Shown here: piece by piece, positions 21,041 through 27,769 of the stretch | Position numbering within the stretch: the stretch's first letter is position 1 | Layout of the letters: every line of letters starts with the position of its first letter | Source: Chloroflexota bacterium | GTDB lineage: Bacteria > Chloroflexota > Dormibacteria > Dormibacterales > Dormibacteraceae | DNA length: 36,138 nt | Direction of reading: 5' to 3' | Assembly: GCA_005889495.1 (NCBI GenBank) | Contig: VBHA01000071.1 | Coordinates: forward strand, 1 to 36,138 | The notes under the pieces: generated by a model | The model's input: only the letters and a program-made list of their open reading frames with translations | Databases searched by the model: none | Told to the model about the DNA's origin: nothing | Translations under genes and position numbers: made by a program

Positions 21041-21849
21041 GGCTCGACATCGTGCACAACACCCGGTACCGCTACACAGCCCCGATTGCGGAAACCGTCA
21101 TGGAGGTCCGCCTTCGTCCGATGGACGGGAACGGGCAGCGATGCCTCGACTTCCGGCTCGAGCTGAGCCACGGCGTGAAAGCGCGCGCCTACGTGGACGG
21201 TTTCGGCAACCACGTCCACTACTTCAACCTCGTGCGTCCCCATTCGGGGCTCAGCGTGATCAGCCGGTCGACGGTCGAGACGGGCCTGCCGCCGGACGAG
21301 CAACCGGGCGAAGAGCTCGTCAACGACTTCCTGCGCTTCCGCTCGCCGGTGAAGGACGTCGAAGGCGTGCGCGAGCTGGCGGACCGCCACGCGATCAACG
21401 ACCCGTCGTCGCCCGAATCGGTCGAGCACGCGCTGGACGAGCTGACGGAGACGATCAGCCGCGAGTTCAACTACGACCGCACCGTGACGAACGTCTACAG
21501 CGCGGTGGACGACGTGCTCACGCTGCGCGCGGGAGTGTGCCAGGACTTCGCCCACCTGTTCATCGCCGTGGCGCGCGCCATGGGCGTGCCCGCTCGCTAC
21601 GTCAGCGGCTACATCCACTTCCCCGGCGAGAAGGCATTGACCACCGCATCCCACGCGTGGGCGGAGGCATGGGTCGCGGGCCGGGGATGGATCGGCTTCG
21701 ATGCGACGCATCCCATCAGGACCACGCCGCACCACGTTCGCCTCGCGGTCGGACGTGACTACACGGACGCCGCGCCGACGCGCGGCGTCTACGTCGGGTC
21801 GGCCGGGAGCTCTATGTCGATCAGCGTGAGGACGCGCGCGGCCGGCTAG
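21037..21849 (+). CDS. Transglutaminase-like cysteine protein, paralogue 3
   Basis: GTG 21037 (overlapping TGA of alpha-E) gives a 270-residue protein: beta domain (DIVHNTRYRYTAPIAETVME), then the transglutaminase core with Cys (GVCQDFAHLFIAVARAMG), His (TASHAWAEAW) and Asp (GFDATHPI). The catalytic triad is complete. It closes the plus-strand arm of the locus and ends in a 4-nt CTAG overlap with the convergent ACT-DUF5612 gene. As with its homologues, a role as protease or amide-forming enzyme on the ATP-grasp product is prediction, not proof. Confidence 0.93.
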   Translation: MRLDIVHNTRYRYTAPIAETVMEVRLRPMDGNGQRCLDFRLELSHGVKARAYVDGFGNHVHYFNLVRPHSGLSVISRSTVETGLPPDEQPGEELVNDFLRFRSPVKDVEGVRELADRHAINDPSSPESVEHALDELTETISREFNYDRTVTNVYSAVDDVLTLRAGVCQDFAHLFIAVARAMGVPARYVSGYIHFPGEKALTTASHAWAEAWVAGRGWIGFDATHPIRTTPHHVRLAVGRDYTDAAPTRGVYVGSAGSSMSISVRTRAAG

Positions 21850-22529
21850 AACCTCTTGCCGCGGACGTGCTCGATGTCGAACTTCGCCGTGTCGGCGATC
21901 AGCATCACCGCCATCACGCCCGCCTCGACAGGGTCGCTGACGACCACGTCGGCGGCGTCCGGCACCGAGCCTGCCATGTTCGTGCAGAGGACGATGATTC
22001 CCGCCTCACGGATCTCGCGCACGGCGGCCGTGATGTCGCCGCCCATCAAGGCTCCCGCCAGCACCAGGGCGCGCGCCCTGTGCAGCCGGGCCACGGCGCG
22101 CACGGCGTCCGCGAGCTGCTCCTCGCCGACCAGCGGGATGGTGTCGACCGAGATCCGCTCGCCGCGGATGTTGTGGCGGTCCGCCTCCGAGATGGCGCCC
22201 TGCGCGACCATGCCGACCTGCGCCCCGCCCCCGATCACGATCACTCGTTTGCCGTAGATCGCCTGAAAGGTCGGCACCAGGCCGACATGGGTCACGCCGT
22301 GCACAGCCTCCAGGTCAGCGATCAGGCGCCGCTCGTCGGGCGCGCCCGAAACCTCGAGCTGGAGCTCGGCGACCGCCTCGCGTCGGGCGCCGCCCGCGAC
22401 GTACGTGATGTTCCCGCCCTGCCTGAAGATGGCCTCGGTGATCCGGTAGAGAACCCCGGGTTCATCGCGGCACTCCACGAGCAGACCGGTCGCCGGCGAG
22501 CCTGGGGGCTGAGCCATGGCCGAGACCAT
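21846..22529 (-). CDS. ACT domain-DUF5612 protein
   Basis: ATG 22529 (or 22517, MAQPPGSPATG) gives about 227 residues. Residues about 12-80 are an ACT amino-acid-binding domain (GLLVECRDEPGVLYRITEAI then FRQGGNITYVAG). The remainder matches the DUF5612 type known mainly from methanogens: GKRVIVIGGGAQVGMVAQGA, ISEADRHNIRGERISVDTIP and LAGALMGGDITAAV. The second half has a glycine-rich nucleotide-binding look. Its ligand and role are unknown. It is divergent from cimA, whose leader senses isoleucine, so an amino-acid-linked role is plausible. Confidence 0.8.
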   Translation of the reverse strand: MVSAMAQPPGSPATGLLVECRDEPGVLYRITEAIFRQGGNITYVAGGARREAVAELQLEVSGAPDERRLIADLEAVHGVTHVGLVPTFQAIYGKRVIVIGGGAQVGMVAQGAISEADRHNIRGERISVDTIPLVGEEQLADAVRAVARLHRARALVLAGALMGGDITAAVREIREAGIIVLCTNMAGSVPDAADVVVSDPVEAGVMAVMLIADTAKFDIEHVRGKRF

Positions 22530-22606
22530 AGCTGTTAGCCCTGACCGACTAACGCGCAGGTCCTGAGTTGGGGACCGAAGCCATACCATCGGCGCCCGGC
22601 ATGCCT

Positions 22607-22612
22607 TAGGCT
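22607..22612 (+). promoter_or_regulatory. Possible -10 element TAGGCT for the cimA leader transcript
   Basis: TAGGCT lies nine bases before the leader ATG (22622), a distance that would start the RNA at or very near the ATG (leaderless mRNA). No convincing -35 is seen 16-19 bases upstream, so this is only a candidate. Confidence 0.35.
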
Positions 22613-22621
22613 TGCGGCCAC

Positions 22622-22678
22622 ATGCGCTACGACCGCGCGATCGGGATCGAGATTACCCGGGGAGGTCCCCCGACTTAG
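22622..22678 (+). CDS. cimA leader peptide with clustered isoleucine codons
   Basis: The 18-codon ORF encodes MRYDRAIGIEITRGGPPT and ends at TAG 22676-22678. Codons 7, 9 and 11 are Ile (ATC, ATC, ATT). Isoleucine is the end product of the pathway that the downstream cimA gene starts. The Ile codons lie just before the 5' half of an antiterminator stem, the geometry of a ribosome-controlled attenuator. No Shine-Dalgarno site is evident, and a TAGGCT nine bases upstream suggests leaderless translation. Confidence 0.7.
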   Translation: MRYDRAIGIEITRGGPPT

Positions 22679-22733
22679 CGCGCGTCGCTGATGTCGGTTG
22701 GACCTCCCGGCCATAAGGTCGGGAGGTTTTTTT
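22659..22733 (+). promoter_or_regulatory. Transcription attenuator of cimA: antiterminator/terminator switch
   Basis: Terminator: ACCTCCCG (22702-22709) pairs with CGGGAGGT (22720-22727), extended inward by G-U, C-G and C-G to an AUAA loop, then a run of seven T (22727-22733). Antiterminator: GGGAGGTCC (22660-22668) is perfectly complementary to GGACCTCCC (22700-22708), which includes the terminator's 5' arm, so only one of the two can form. A ribosome at the leader stop (22676) would cover the 22660 segment and favour termination; a ribosome stalled at the first Ile codons would leave it free. The T-run touches the cimA ATG, and GGGAGG in the terminator 3' arm is also the cimA ribosome-binding site. 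Confidence 0.85.
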
Positions 22734-24368
22734 ATGTCCGATTGGCAAGAAGTGCGCCCTGCGCGCGCCCGGCGGAAGATCGTGGTCTACGACACCACCC
22801 TGCGCGACGGGGCACAGGGTCCGGACGTCTCGTTCTCGGCCGCCGACAAGGAGCGCATCGCGCGCCTGCTCGATGGCCTGGAGTTCGACTACGTCGAGGG
22901 CGGCTTCCCCGGGTCCAACCCGAAGGACGAGGAGCTGTTCGCGCGCCTCGCGGCGGAGCCGTTGCGTCACGCCCGGCTCGCGGCATTCGGCGCCACGCGG
23001 CGCGCGGGTGGCCGCTGCGAGGACGACGCCAACCTGAACGCCCTGGTCGACAGCCGCGCGCCGGTGTGGACGCTCGTCGGCAAGAGCGACACGTGGCAGG
23101 TGTCGACCGTGCTGCAGACCACCAACAACGAGAACCTGGCCATGGTCGAGGAGTCGGTCGCGTATGGCGTGAGCAAGGGCCGCGAGGTGATCTTCGACGC
23201 CGAGCACTTCTTCGACGGATACGCGCGCGACGCCGAGTACGCCGTCGAGGTGTGCCTGTGCGCCGCCCGCGCCGGCGCGACGTGGGTGGTGCTTTGCGAC
23301 ACCAACGGAGGCAGCCAGCCCGAGGCCGTACGAGGCGGGGTCGAGGCGGTGGTCAAGGCTCTGGCGGGCTCGGGCAGCGTTGCGCGCGTCGGCATCCACA
23401 CCCACAACGACTGCGAGCTCGCCGTCGCCAACTCGCTCGAAGGAGTGATGGCGGGCGCCGGCATGGTCCAGGGGACGATCAACGGTTATGGCGAGCGCTG
23501 CGGCAACGCCAACCTCGTGTCGGTCGTCTCCAACCTCGCGCTCAAGCTGGACCTCGACGCACTGCCGGCAACCTCGGTGCGGCGGTTCAGCGAGCTGTCG
23601 CGCACCGTCGCCGAGATCGCCAACCTCGCCCTGCCGCTGCAGCAGCCGTTCGTCGGGCACGGCGCGTTTGCGCACAAGGGAGGCCAGCACGTCGCGGCGG
23701 TGCTGAAGCACAAGGACGCCTACCAGCACATCGAACCCGGGCTGGTGGGCAACGAGGCGAGGGTGCTGGTCTCGGAGCTCTCGGGACGGGGCAACGTGCT
23801 GGCGAAGGCACGGGAGTTCGGGCTCGAGCTCGACCGCGACGACCCGCAGACGCGCTGGCTGGTGCAGCACTTGAAGGAGCTCGAGCACCAGGGCTACGCG
23901 TACGAGGCTGCCGACGCGTCGTTCGAGATGCTGCTCCGGCGCCTTCAGCCCGGCTACGCCGCGCCCTGGGCGGTCGCGGACTTCACGACCCAGGTCCGCA
24001 AGAACGGCGGGTCGGTGCACGCGGAGGCGACGGTGAAGGTGGAGGTGGCCGGGACGACGTATCACACGGCCGCCTCCGGCAACGGCCCGGTGAACGCGCT
24101 CGATGCGGCGCTGCGCAAAGCGCTCAGCCCGCAGTTTCCCGCGCTCGACGGCGTGAGCCTGCACGATTACAAGGTGCGCATCCTCAACGGTGACGCCGGG
24201 ACGGCGGCGACCACCCGCGTGCTGATCGAATCGGGGAGGGGCACGACGCGCTGGACCACCGTCGGGTGCTCGGCGAACATCATCGAAGCGTCGCTGCTCG
24301 CGCTGCTCGACTCGCTGGAGTTCGCGATCATCTTCCCCACCCGTGGGGAAGTCGCCCCGCTCGCTTAG
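22734..24368 (+). CDS. cimA: (R)-citramalate synthase
   Basis: The enzyme condenses pyruvate with acetyl-CoA to (R)-citramalate, the entry step of the threonine-independent isoleucine route. The 544-residue protein has the HMGL-like barrel (VVYDTTLRDGAQGPDVSFSA, FDYVEGGFPGSNPKDEELF, HTHNDCELAVANSLEG, VQGTINGYGERCGNANL, GHGAFAHKGGQH) and the C-terminal LeuA-type regulatory domain (about 410-530). The CimA/TIGR00977 features separate it from LeuA. ATG 22734 follows GGGAGG by eight bases; that site lies within the attenuator terminator. ppc follows 12 bases downstream. Confidence 0.92.
   Translation: MSDWQEVRPARARRKIVVYDTTLRDGAQGPDVSFSAADKERIARLLDGLEFDYVEGGFPGSNPKDEELFARLAAEPLRHARLAAFGATRRAGGRCEDDANLNALVDSRAPVWTLVGKSDTWQVSTVLQTTNNENLAMVEESVAYGVSKGREVIFDAEHFFDGYARDAEYAVEVCLCAARAGATWVVLCDTNGGSQPEAVRGGVEAVVKALAGSGSVARVGIHTHNDCELAVANSLEGVMAGAGMVQGTINGYGERCGNANLVSVVSNLALKLDLDALPATSVRRFSELSRTVAEIANLALPLQQPFVGHGAFAHKGGQHVAAVLKHKDAYQHIEPGLVGNEARVLVSELSGRGNVLAKAREFGLELDRDDPQTRWLVQHLKELEHQGYAYEAADASFEMLLRRLQPGYAAPWAVADFTTQVRKNGGSVHAEATVKVEVAGTTYHTAASGNGPVNALDAALRKALSPQFPALDGVSLHDYKVRILNGDAGTAATTRVLIESGRGTTRWTTVGCSANIIEASLLALLDSLEFAIIFPTRGEVAPLA
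24332..24351. repeat. Inverted repeat CTTCCCC-N6-GGGGAAG (copy 2)
   Basis: Same arms and spacer length as the copy at 16886-16905, here inside the last codons of cimA with spacer ACCCGT. With the spacer it extends to a 9-bp stem (CTTCCCCAC / GTGGGGAAG). Confidence 0.55.
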
Positions 24369-24380
24369 CGAGCCGGGCGG

Positions 24381-26805
24381 ATGGGGCTGAGCCGAGCTAG
24401 AAAGACCGCCCGCCAGGAGATCCCGCCGGAGCTGCGGCGCGACGTGCGCCTGCTCGGCCAGGTGCTGGGTAACGTGATCGCGGATTACGGCGGCGCGGGG
24501 CTGCTGCGCGACGTCGAGCGCCTACGGCGGCTCGTGATCCGCGCCCGGGACGAAGGCCGCTTCGAGCGGGATGCGGAGAGGTTGGTCGCGTCCTGGAAGC
24601 TCGAGCGCGCCGAGCTGGTCGCGCGCGCGTTCACGTGCTACTTCCACCTCGCCAACCTCGCCGAGGAGCACCATCGCGCCAGGGTGATCCGGGAGCGCGA
24701 CCGGGGCCCGTCGCCGCTCCCGGAGTCGCTCGCCGCGAGCATCGCGGAGCTGGGGCACCGGCTTGGCCGCCGGCGCCTGGCCCAGCTCGTGTCCGGCCTG
24801 GGGTTCCATCCCGTCTTCACCGCTCACCCGACCGAGGCGCGGCGCCGTGCGGTCGTGACCGCGATCCGCCGCATCGGAGAGCAGCTCGAACGCCTCGACG
24901 ATCCACGGATCTCCGATGGTGAGAAGGTCGAAGCCGATCGCAGGCTGGGCGAGGAGGTCGACTCTTTGTGGCGCACCGCCCAGATGCGGACGGCGCAGGT
25001 CCAGCCCCTGGACGAGGTCCGCTCCTTCATGGCCGTCTTCGACGAGACGCTCTTCCGCATGGTGCCCGAGGTCCTTCGCGCGTTCGACACGGCGCTCGGC
25101 ACGCCGGCTCCGGCCTTCCTGCGTTTCGGCAGCTGGATCGGAGGCGACCGGGACGGCAATCCCGCGGTCACGGCGCAGGTGACCGCCGACGCGATGGCGA
25201 TCCACCACGAGCACATCCTCCTGGCCCTCGAGGCAGTCGCCGACCGTGTCGGCCGCGCCCTCACCGTCGACGCCCAGACGACCCCGCCTTCGCGCCCGTT
25301 GAATCGCCGCCTGAAGGGTCCGGTTGCCGAGCCCCACCGCGAGTTTCTGCTCGAGGTCGCGCGCCGTCTTCGCGCGACACGGCTCAACGAACGGGACATC
25401 GCGTACCGGTCTCCGGCCGACTTGGTCGAAGACCTTCGCCTTCTGCGCGACTCACTGGCTGCCGCCGGCGCGCCGCGACTCGCTCACGGTGAGGTCCAGC
25501 ACCTTGTCTGGCAGGCTGAGACGTTCGGCTTCCACCTCGCGGAGCTCGAGGTCAGACAACACAGCCACGTCCACGAGACGGCGCTTGGCGAGGTCCGGGC
25601 CGGCTCTGTGTCCGCGGCCACCCGGGAGGTGCTCGACACGCTCGGCGTGATGGCGTCGCTGCAGTCGCGTTACGGCCTCGACAGCTGCCGCCGATACGTG
25701 GTCAGCTTCACGCGCGGCGCCGGCGACATCGCCGCCGTGTACGAGCTGGCGCGTCACGCCACCGGCGGTCGCGCCCCCGCGCTCGACGTCGTGCCGCTGT
25801 TCGAGACGCTCGACGACCTCTCGCGCGCGACCGCGGTGATGGACGATGTCATCCGGCTCGCCCCCGTGCGCCGGAGGCTGGCCGCCAACGGCCGCAGCGT
25901 CGAGGTGATGCTGGGTTACTCCGACTCCGCCAAGGAGATCGGTCCACTGTCCGCGACCATCGCCCTCCACGACGCGCAGGCCGCGCTCACGGCCTGGGCG
26001 AAGCGGAACCGGTTGAAGCTCGTCCTGTTTCATGGTCGAGGAGGCGCGCTCGGACGCGGGGGAGGCCCGGCCAACCGCGCGGTGCGCGCCCAGGCGCCGG
26101 GGTCGGTGGCGGGACGCTTCAAGGTCACCGAGCAGGGCGAGGTGATCTTCGCGCGCTACGGCAACCGGGCGATCGCCCGCCGCCACGTCGAGCAGGTCGC
26201 CTCCGCGGTGCTCGAGGCGTCCGCCCCCAGCCATGCGCGCGTCGACCCGGCAAACGCGTTTCGCGGTCTCGTGGAGCTGATCGAGGGCCCGTCGCGGGCG
26301 GCCTATCGGGCGCTTGTGGAGGCGCCCGGGTTCGAGGACTGGTTTCTCGAGGTCAGCCCACTGGAAGAGCTGGGCCGGCTGCGCATCGCCTCCAGGCCCG
26401 CGCGGCGCGCAAGGAGCAGGCGGCTGGAGGACTTGCCCGCTCTTCAACTCCATGCTGGACAACGCCGAGATGAGCCTGGCCAAGACCGACCGCCGGATCG
26501 CCCAGCGCTACCTGGCCCTGGGCGACCGGACCGACCTCGCTCAGATGCTGCTGCGCGAGTACGAGCTGACCATGAAGATGGTGCTCGCCGTCACCGGCCA
26601 CCGCCGCCTGCTCGAGGACAGGCGAGTGCTGTCATGGGCCATCGAGCTGCGCAATCCTTACGTGGACGCGCTCTCGCACCTGCAGCTGCGCGCGCTCCGT
26701 GCGTTGCGGGACCGGAAGACGTCGCGGCCAGACCGCGCGAAAGCCGAGAGAGTGTTTCAGCTGAGCGTGAACGGAGTTGCCGCGGGCCTCCAGAACACAG
26801 GCTGA
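24381..26805 (+). pseudogene. ppc: Phosphoenolpyruvate carboxylase, interrupted by an internal deletion and frameshift
   Basis: PEP carboxylase makes oxaloacetate from PEP and bicarbonate. Key motifs are present in the first frame: TAHPTEA with the catalytic His, FGSWIGGDRDGNP, VMLGYSDSAKEIG and FHGRGGALGRGGGP. After RRLEDL (near 26435) the frame becomes nonsense, while the next frame continues with family sequence from CPLFNSMLDNAEMSLAKTD to the canonical ending AAGLQNTG at 26805. The block normally between these parts (LRAIPW..FAWTQ..LPGW to a W before PLF, roughly 45-50 residues) is absent, and the frame differs by one base. The single open frame to 26831 is therefore not a true product. 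It lies 12 bases after cimA, so the pair is probably one operon. It is either a genuine pseudogene or an assembly fault. Confidence 0.88.
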
Positions 26806-26809
26806 CCTC

Positions 26810-27769
26810 TCAAGCAGCGCCTAGATGGTGAAGCGTGGGCAGCTCGCTCGCCAGCAGGTCGACAGTCTCTGGATCCCACTGAGTGCCCGCACCCGCGCGA
26901 AGCACCGCCAGCGCCTCCTGGGTCGACCGCCGCGTCCGGTAGGGGCGGTCGTTGACGAGCGCGTCGAACGCGTCGCAGACGGAGACGATGCGCGCCATCC
27001 TCGGGATCTCGCGGGCGCGCAGCCCATCCGGATATCCCGACCCGTCAAACCGTTCGTGGTGGTGACGGATGATCGGGAGCAGGCCTGAGGTCGAGTGCAG
27101 CGGGCGGACGATGCTCTCGCCGATCGCCACGTGGGCCTGCATCTGCGGAAGCTCGATCGCGTCCAGCGGGCCCGGCTTGTGCAGAATCGAGTCGGCGACG
27201 CCGATCTTGCCGATGTCGTGGATGATGCCTCCGCGATACAGCGTGTCCAGGGTCTGCTCGGGGAGTCCCAGCTTTTCGCCGAGGAGCCGTGCCGATTCAC
27301 CGACCCTCTGCGTGTGCCGCTCGGTGAAGGAGTCCTTGGCCTCGACCGCGGTCGCGAGCGAGAAGATCACGTGCTCGGCGCTGTCGAGGGTGTTGTAGAG
27401 CTCCTTCAGACGCAGCGCCGAGCGCACCCGGGCGATCAGCTCCGCGCCCTCGACCGGCTTGGCCATGAAGTCGTCGGCGCCGGCCTCGAGCGCCATGACC
27501 CGGTGCGTGGTCTGGCTCAGCCCGGTGATCATCACGACCGGCAGAAGGCGACCGCGAGGCATCGCCTTGATGCGCCTGCACACTTCGTACCCATCCATCC
27601 GCGGCATCCGCACGTCAAGCAGGACGAGGTCCGGCGGGCTGGCCTCGATCAGCGCCAGCGCGCTGGGCCCGTCTTCGGCCAGCATCACATCGCAGTCGAT
27701 GGTCGCCAGGAACAGACGAATCAACTCGCGATTCGCCGCGCTGTCGTCCACCACGAGCACGACAGGCAT
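26810..27769 (-). CDS. Response regulator with HD-GYP phosphodiesterase domain
   Basis: ATG 27769 gives 319 residues. The receiver domain has D52 (LLDVRMPRMDG) and K104 (FMAKPVEG). The HD-GYP domain carries H184-D185 (IIHDIGKIG), H237-H-E-R and G245-Y246-P247 (HHERFDGSGYPDGL), all needed for cyclic-di-GMP hydrolysis. Phosphorylation would switch the activity of a c-di-GMP phosphodiesterase. No cognate kinase is adjacent, but an orphan PAS kinase lies 1.9 kb away. The open frame to 28147 is an artefact. Confidence 0.93.
   Translation of the reverse strand: MPVVLVVDDSAANRELIRLFLATIDCDVMLAEDGPSALALIEASPPDLVLLDVRMPRMDGYEVCRRIKAMPRGRLLPVVMITGLSQTTHRVMALEAGADDFMAKPVEGAELIARVRSALRLKELYNTLDSAEHVIFSLATAVEAKDSFTERHTQRVGESARLLGEKLGLPEQTLDTLYRGGIIHDIGKIGVADSILHKPGPLDAIELPQMQAHVAIGESIVRPLHSTSGLLPIIRHHHERFDGSGYPDGLRAREIPRMARIVSVCDAFDALVNDRPYRTRRSTQEALAVLRAGAGTQWDPETVDLLASELPTLHHLGAA

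Follow-up and report, generated by a model that had tools for sequence, protein, structure and literature searches.

A probable isoleucine-sensing attenuator whose terminator carries the ribosome-binding site of citramalate synthase in a Chloroflexota family

We describe an RNA element, directly upstream of the citramalate synthase gene cimA in a Dormibacteraceae genome, that is in our estimate a ribosome-mediated transcription attenuator sensing isoleucine through charged tRNA-Ile, with a probability of roughly 87%. The window analysed is a 36,138-nucleotide stretch of one contig from a 2.73-Mb assembly in 201 contigs. Our reading is built on the anatomy of the element, its conservation, the covariation of its stems between families and its link to cimA.

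The initial annotation had proposed an 18-codon open reading frame with isoleucine at codons 7, 9 and 11, a 9-bp antiterminator competing with an 11-bp terminator that ends in T7, and the cimA start codon directly behind it. Reading the sequence and translating the leader showed all of its coordinates to be correct to the base. The leader peptide frame (MRYDRAIGIEITRGGPPT*, ATG to TAG, 22622-22678, plus strand, as are all parts of the element) has its isoleucine codons at 22640-22642, 22646-22648 and 22652-22654. Downstream of these, the 5' arm of the antiterminator (GGGAGGTCC, 22660-22668) is a perfect 9-bp complement of the 3' arm (GGACCTCCC, 22700-22708), and the stem is extended by two inner helices (22670-22674 with 22693-22697, and 22677-22680 with 22686-22689), at the junction of which lies the leader stop codon. 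The antiterminator 3' arm overlaps the 5' arm of an intrinsic terminator hairpin (22702-22727; arms ACCTCCCGGCC at 22702-22712 and GGTCGGGAGGT at 22717-22727; 11 bp, one of them a G-U pair; loop ATAA), and the two structures, with one strand in common, are mutually exclusive, as the parts of an attenuator should be. The hexamer GGGAGG (22721-22726) is at once part of the terminator 3' arm and the cimA Shine-Dalgarno sequence, 7 nt from the ATG, and the U-tract T7 (22727-22733), whose first base is also the last base of the terminator stem, doubles as the spacer between Shine-Dalgarno sequence and start. The whole arrangement is compact, with -10 box, sensor, terminator, Shine-Dalgarno sequence and start codon within about 130 nt.

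When the leader was shuffled with its dinucleotides preserved, 1 of 3,000 sequences gave a terminator whose 5' arm also belonged to an 8-bp antiterminator, and a terminator scan found one terminator against a shuffle mean of 0.2. The folding energy of 22590-22745 is by itself mildly unusual (z = -1.87; equalled by 6 of 200 shuffles); we regard conservation in all 29 cimA leaders as the strong evidence. Within the antiterminator arm lies a local hairpin, CGGGG-AGGUC-CCCCG (22658-22672), a possible pause or anti-antiterminator hairpin. In 22 leaders 93.6% of its cells are paired with no double changes, and two slid registers outscore it on covariation; the hairpin is therefore weakly supported; it could pause the polymerase.

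The gene that follows (22734-24368, plus strand, 544 aa) is cimA, as had been proposed, scoring 627 bits against the TIGR00977 equivalog, for which the cut-off is 450. Citramalate synthase opens the route from pyruvate to isoleucine, which places cimA in the biosynthesis of the very amino acid that the leader encodes. The best named relative of the window's CimA, in the Chloroflexi-labelled metagenome-assembled genome CF_54 (78% identity in the best segment), has the same element in its cimA leader. As to another possible isoleucine route, through threonine deaminase, TIGR01127 matched in 42 of 42 genomes of the window's family, none of them above the curated cut-off. A phosphoenolpyruvate carboxylase gene (24381-26831, plus strand; PF00311, 572 bits) begins 12 nt after cimA and is possibly co-transcribed with it, so that the attenuator may govern oxaloacetate supply too. 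On the other side, a divergent minus-strand gene (21846-22589) encodes an ACT domain and DUF5612 and is a candidate for an amino-acid-sensing protein adjoining cimA. Its orientation also bears on whether the element could be a constitutive terminator preceded by a chance reading frame. One strong terminator is indeed present, but the upstream gene is divergent, so none of its transcripts needs ending there, and such a reading leaves unexplained both the position of the terminator against the ATG and an antiterminator conserved in 29 of 29 leaders; we give it hardly any credence.

Conservation in relatives had been named beforehand as one of two tests that could refute the proposal, and the isoleucine-rich frame and both stems are present in every one of the 29 cimA leaders examined from the window's family (f1; a second family of the same class, not necessarily the nearest, is called f2). 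A survey of 60 relatives and G000 included 37 f1 genomes, of which 25 had a CimA match at E < 1e-100 and 12 did not. A covariance model (R1) built from 22 leaders placed the element in 29 of 42 f1 genomes, namely the 25 CimA-positive ones and G061, G062, G064 and G065, where it likewise lies 5' of cimA; the same search did not find it in G063. The resulting link, 25 of 25 genomes with a CimA match against 0 of 12 without, calls for caution on two counts: gene and leader adjoin, so that one assembly gap removes both and the link is in part built in, and the 12 genomes are all incomplete, some more than others (59-96%). Second copies were sought in the 29 genomes under laxer filters, and none was convincing. 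Partial matches on the minus strand were rejected as further copies, because they read the stem in antisense. There were two additional weak matches, one in G017 (E = 0.42) and one in G020 (E = 0.062), whose locus we read and which sits 5' of what we take to be an aspartate carbamoyltransferase gene.

At its isoleucine codons the leader frame changes among relatives much as a coding sequence would. Counted from the stop, codon -12 is isoleucine in 25 of 29 leaders, codon -10 in 27 and codon -8 in all, and each leader has 3 to 6 isoleucines after the start, an enrichment fitting a short sensor peptide. At these three codons pairwise differences fall mostly on position 3 (0.223, against 0.108 and 0.108), a coding-like pattern; the neighbouring codons -11, -9, -7 and -6 show no such excess (0.270 at position 3, against 0.304 and 0.413). 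Other properties of the frame say less. Leader lengths (17-20 codons in 27 leaders, 28 and 29 in the other two) are multiples of three through the choice of frame and hence no evidence; openness is weak evidence, as frame +1 is also open in 23 of 29 and +2 in 13; and conservation of the C-terminal RGGPPT is no evidence for a peptide, because the stem that it encodes constrains it. The Shine-Dalgarno hexamer varies (GGGAGG in 21 leaders, TGGAGG in 5, CGGAGG in 2 and GAGAGG in 1), and GAGG+T7+ATG is invariant in all 29. This invariance bears out the claim that the terminator 3' arm is the cimA ribosome-binding site, with the U-tract as its spacer.

Transcription of the leader is predicted to start very close to its first codon. 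A predicted -10 box, TAGGCT, lies at 22607-22612 on the plus strand, as judged from the spacing of TANNNT across leaders, and would place the start at about 22619-22622, making the leader mRNA leaderless. All 29 cimA leaders have TANNNT 7-12 nt 5' of the chosen start and all 15 f2 leaders have it at 7-9 nt, a result partly built in, because the choice of start required a box at a distance of 6-13 nt. The box is, however, conserved in itself, reading TAGGCT in 12 and TAGCCT in 6 of the 29. A sigma-70 scan found no promoter. No Shine-Dalgarno sequence is visible by eye ahead of the window's leader start, and translation of the leader may therefore begin at a leaderless end, as in ilvBNC of Corynebacterium glutamicum (as far as the available part of PMC11857589 goes). 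Further upstream, a conserved motif TTGG(N9)CCA (22568-22583) begins 39 nt upstream of the leader -10. Anchored on that box, its TT at -39/-38 is kept in 27 and 29 of 29 leaders, its GG at -37/-36 in 23 and 27, and its CCA at -26/-25/-24 in 25, 28 and 23. Lying between divergent genes, it is possibly an operator or part of the divergent promoter, and it suggests that the start of the minus-strand gene lies further inward than 22589.

Both stems are supported by covariation only once f2 leaders are added to the cimA set. The first alignment, of 22 cimA leaders, has 97.6% of the cells paired in the antiterminator and 95.9% of those in the terminator, with no double change in the former and one in the latter, too little variation for a covariation test; such constancy is expected, because one strand must pair with two others. 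A further alignment (A2) had 33 rows, 23 from cimA and 10 from f2, with 10 of 43 leaders omitted to thin close relatives. Here the antiterminator is 94.1% paired; its double-change cells number 21, compared with 7.1 in shuffles, and its covariation score is 0.202 against 0.141, neither reached in 500 shuffles, and the terminator is 93.9% paired, with 9 double-change cells against 2.1 and a score of 0.173 against 0.128, again reached in none of 500. Counted by pairs, the antiterminator does not exceed shuffles (3 pairs with a double change against 3.1; 11 pair types against 12.4), and the terminator has 3 against 1.6 (a value reached by 61 of 500 shuffles) and 11 against 8.8 (reached by 33 of 500). 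Because cells count related rows repeatedly, we consider this support good rather than overwhelming.

From this architecture we infer the start site, translation, stalling, termination and dual control that make up the proposed mechanism. RNA polymerase would start at or just 5' of 22622, and a ribosome would begin the leader peptide on the leaderless end. With isoleucine scarce, the ribosome would halt at isoleucine codons 7 or 9 (or 11), leaving 22660-22668 unpaired; once 22700-22708 is made the two would pair, the terminator would be blocked, and cimA would be transcribed with its Shine-Dalgarno sequence exposed. With isoleucine plentiful, the ribosome would instead reach the stop at 22676 and prevent the antiterminator, the terminator at 22702-22727 would close, and polymerase would stop within the U7 next to the ATG. 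When the terminator forms, its 3' arm is base-paired, whereas the antiterminator leaves that arm free; read-through RNA in the terminator fold would have its Shine-Dalgarno sequence paired. By this geometry, one fold may block both transcription and translation.

The initial proposal, that stalling at isoleucine codons allows transcription, is supported overall, with three refinements that concern the untranslated leader, the third isoleucine and the kinetic nature of the switch. We assumed a footprint extending 12 nt past the A-site codon and kept all RNA 5' of the ribosome edge unpaired, under which a ribosome at the stop covers about 22658 to 22688 and so takes up the antiterminator's entire 5' half. 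When the transcript is cut off ahead of the last terminator arm, the antiterminator is the dominant fold in 28 of 29 cimA leaders without a ribosome and in 28, 29 and 28 with stalls at -12, -10 and -8; with the ribosome at the stop it dominates in none, and the basal terminator pairs form in all 29. The corresponding f2 counts, in the same order, are 15, 15, 15, 14 and 0 of 15. An untranslated leader should thus form the antiterminator until a ribosome at the stop removes it, unlike the trp leader of Escherichia coli, which terminates when untranslated. A ribosome stalled at the third isoleucine would overlap the start of 22660-22668, and stalling at either of the first two should therefore be most effective. 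Full-length RNA behaves differently. Of the 29 cimA leaders, 12, 11, 8, 0 and 0 favour the antiterminator and 17, 17, 21, 29 and 29 the terminator, in the order no ribosome, stalls at -12, -10 and -8, and ribosome at the stop. For the window, the full-length fold gives the terminator a probability of 0.97 without a ribosome and 0.67-1.00 with a stalled one. At equilibrium the window's full-length RNA therefore favours the terminator, and the switch would have to be kinetic, set by the order of synthesis; the modelled folds support a kinetic rather than an equilibrium switch.

The same geometry could be read as a switch that is mainly translational, in which the hairpin at 22702-22727 hides the cimA Shine-Dalgarno sequence, the leader ribosome opens or closes it, and termination is secondary. 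The terminator 3' arm is the Shine-Dalgarno sequence, at 7-nt spacing, in 29 of 29 leaders, and T-boxes of actinobacterial ileS genes sequester theirs (PMC1262725, in the part available). A spacer need not be T7, yet T7 is invariant in all 29; and in the f2 leaders, where T7+ATG is found in 9 of 15 and the remaining 6 vary, at least 4 consecutive T persist in 15 of 15, as an intrinsic terminator needs. We consider a mainly translational switch unlikely.

The scaffold also occurs before other genes. A survey of 110 genomes of the class found it in 44, 29 from f1 and 15 from f2. The seven cimA loci from f2 and f4 (L105-L111), where cimA sits after what appears to be the end of a leuB-type gene, yielded no element. 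Instead, a threonine-synthase paralogue lies downstream in 14 of the 15 f2 cases (L145-L153, L155-L158 and L183), identified in G089 by TIGR00260 (257 bits against 167) and in the others by reading, and in all 14 the leader has methionine at -10 and -8 from the stop and methionine or isoleucine at -9. In the remaining f2 genome, G039 (L154/L193, G039:C16), a leader with isoleucine and valine codons (MCSTRIRGIVGPGGSRT) lies 5' of ilv genes: a small ACT-like protein with a weak IlvM match (E = 0.019, below the cut-off), and next the large subunit of acetolactate synthase (TIGR00118, 628 bits against 538). The copies would have in common the module of terminator, Shine-Dalgarno sequence and U-tract, and the leader C terminus (GG..T-stop); the leader codons differ among genes that share this scaffold and so would predict the product of the downstream enzyme.

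This change of codon identity with the downstream gene also bears on whether isoleucine might be sensed by a T-box, through tRNA, or directly by an amino-acid riboswitch, the reading frame being incidental. An antiterminator with a terminator is typical of both, and the class of gene fits. Against this, no Rfam family reached its gathering score anywhere in the window, and an incidental frame sits poorly with codons that follow the gene; we think sensing of this kind very improbable. Sub-threshold Rfam matches over the element, considered as possible signs of membership, name neither class, the best reaching 20.2 bits against 50.

What the threonine-synthase (ThrC) paralogues do is suggested by their leaders. 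In each of the 25 genomes searched there are two or more ThrC-type matches, some of which are pieces of one gene, and one may therefore serve another reaction. MetM, a ThrC homologue, has been reported as a homocysteine synthase in Streptomyces (cited in the available part of PMC12172450), and we hypothesize that the methionine-led paralogue is a MetM-like homocysteine synthase. A search for SAM riboswitches 5' of orthologues of the paralogue, whose presence would have favoured a role in methionine synthesis, gave no Rfam match in 14 stretches (11 from f1, 2 from f2, namely G039 and G059, and 1 unrelated). No attenuator was found before the paralogues of G039 and G059, and the methionine leader is thus not universal in f2. 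Taken as one proposal, that this Chloroflexota class has a single recodable attenuator scaffold in which one hairpin locks transcription and translation, with a MetM-like ThrC paralogue among its targets, is tentative, and we would put it at somewhat under even odds.

A search of 400 genomes across the phylum, with stricter filters that lose weak matches, returned strong matches (E = 2.9e-14 or better) in 20, all from f1 or f2, and 10 weak matches (E = 1e-4 to 0.01), of which we read seven (all but G299, G330 and G447). One of these, at E = 1e-4 in G245 (L184:519-660, G245:C19), from another Chloroflexota family, has an aromatic-rich leader (MPRFFWGYYYFTFSRHPGGLGMA) before a DAHP synthase gene (NF006421, 388 bits against 335) and a complementary triple, CCGGGAGG/CCTCCCGG/CGGGAGG; its terminator does not adjoin the start codon, and it may be related to the cimA element or convergent. 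G132 (L188:475-617, G132:C430) has a leader frame MVMRLFFFLPAPP... (MRLFFFLPAPP...) with a terminator adjoining a start-like codon; the nearby gene is, from a motif, presumably ABC-transporter-like, and the leader, by its resemblance to such systems, is possibly an attenuator induced by ribosome-stalling compounds. A trpE-like leader and a terminator were seen in G331 and G367 (L190 and L189; another Chloroflexota family), together with a GGTGGCACCACG motif that we take to be T-box-like, and a pyrR-like gene lies downstream of the weak match in G370. Inspection of G113 and G150 by eye revealed no comparable element.

Attenuators of the trp, ilv and leu operons of proteobacteria belong to the same mechanism class. 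So does the ilvB uORF motif, a known attenuator (PMC11109978, available part). Among the closest known parallels is ilvBNC of C. glutamicum, for which the available part of PMC11857589 describes a transcript starting one nucleotide from the start codon of a short leader peptide, MTIIRLVVVTARRLP, with isoleucine, valine and leucine codons. The two systems share branched-chain codons in the leader, a transcript start (predicted for cimA) next to the leader start codon, an antiterminator that overlaps with the terminator, an additional anti-antiterminator hairpin (weakly supported at cimA) and a branched-chain pathway gene downstream; they differ in phylum, in gene, in the isoleucine-based leader of cimA and in the distance from transcript start to gene, 292 bp in ilvBNC against about 112 nt for cimA (PMC11857589, same part). 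PMC11857589 uses neither 'Shine-Dalgarno' nor 'RBS', so under these terms it describes no terminator arm that doubles as a ribosome-binding site. Actinobacterial attenuators combine a leader peptide carrying regulatory codons with a complementary triple, gGCC-rGCy-GGCC in trp; the cimA element has a like triple, GGAGG-CCTCC-GGAGG, common to antiterminator and terminator, but its third strand doubles as the Shine-Dalgarno sequence of the gene (comparison with PMC1262725, available part, where 'cimA' is absent). Actinobacterial ileS T-boxes use hairpins that hide the Shine-Dalgarno sequence in place of terminators, and to that extent resemble the cimA hairpin before another isoleucine-related gene, whereas the cimA element has a leader frame and a terminator (PMC1262725, same part). 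Neither a cimA attenuator nor a Chloroflexi attenuator of this kind was found in the open-licence literature searched, which does not prove absence. The mechanism class is known; the novelty lies in the gene and the lineage, in the fusion of terminator, Shine-Dalgarno sequence and spacer, and in one scaffold reused with changed codons.

Within that literature, this would be the first attenuator described for cimA, and it offers a testable circuit of amino-acid control in a lineage known here from assemblies alone. The reading of leader codons bears in turn on the role of ThrC paralogues: if the recodable scaffold is real, methionine codons predict that the paralogue downstream makes homocysteine and not threonine.
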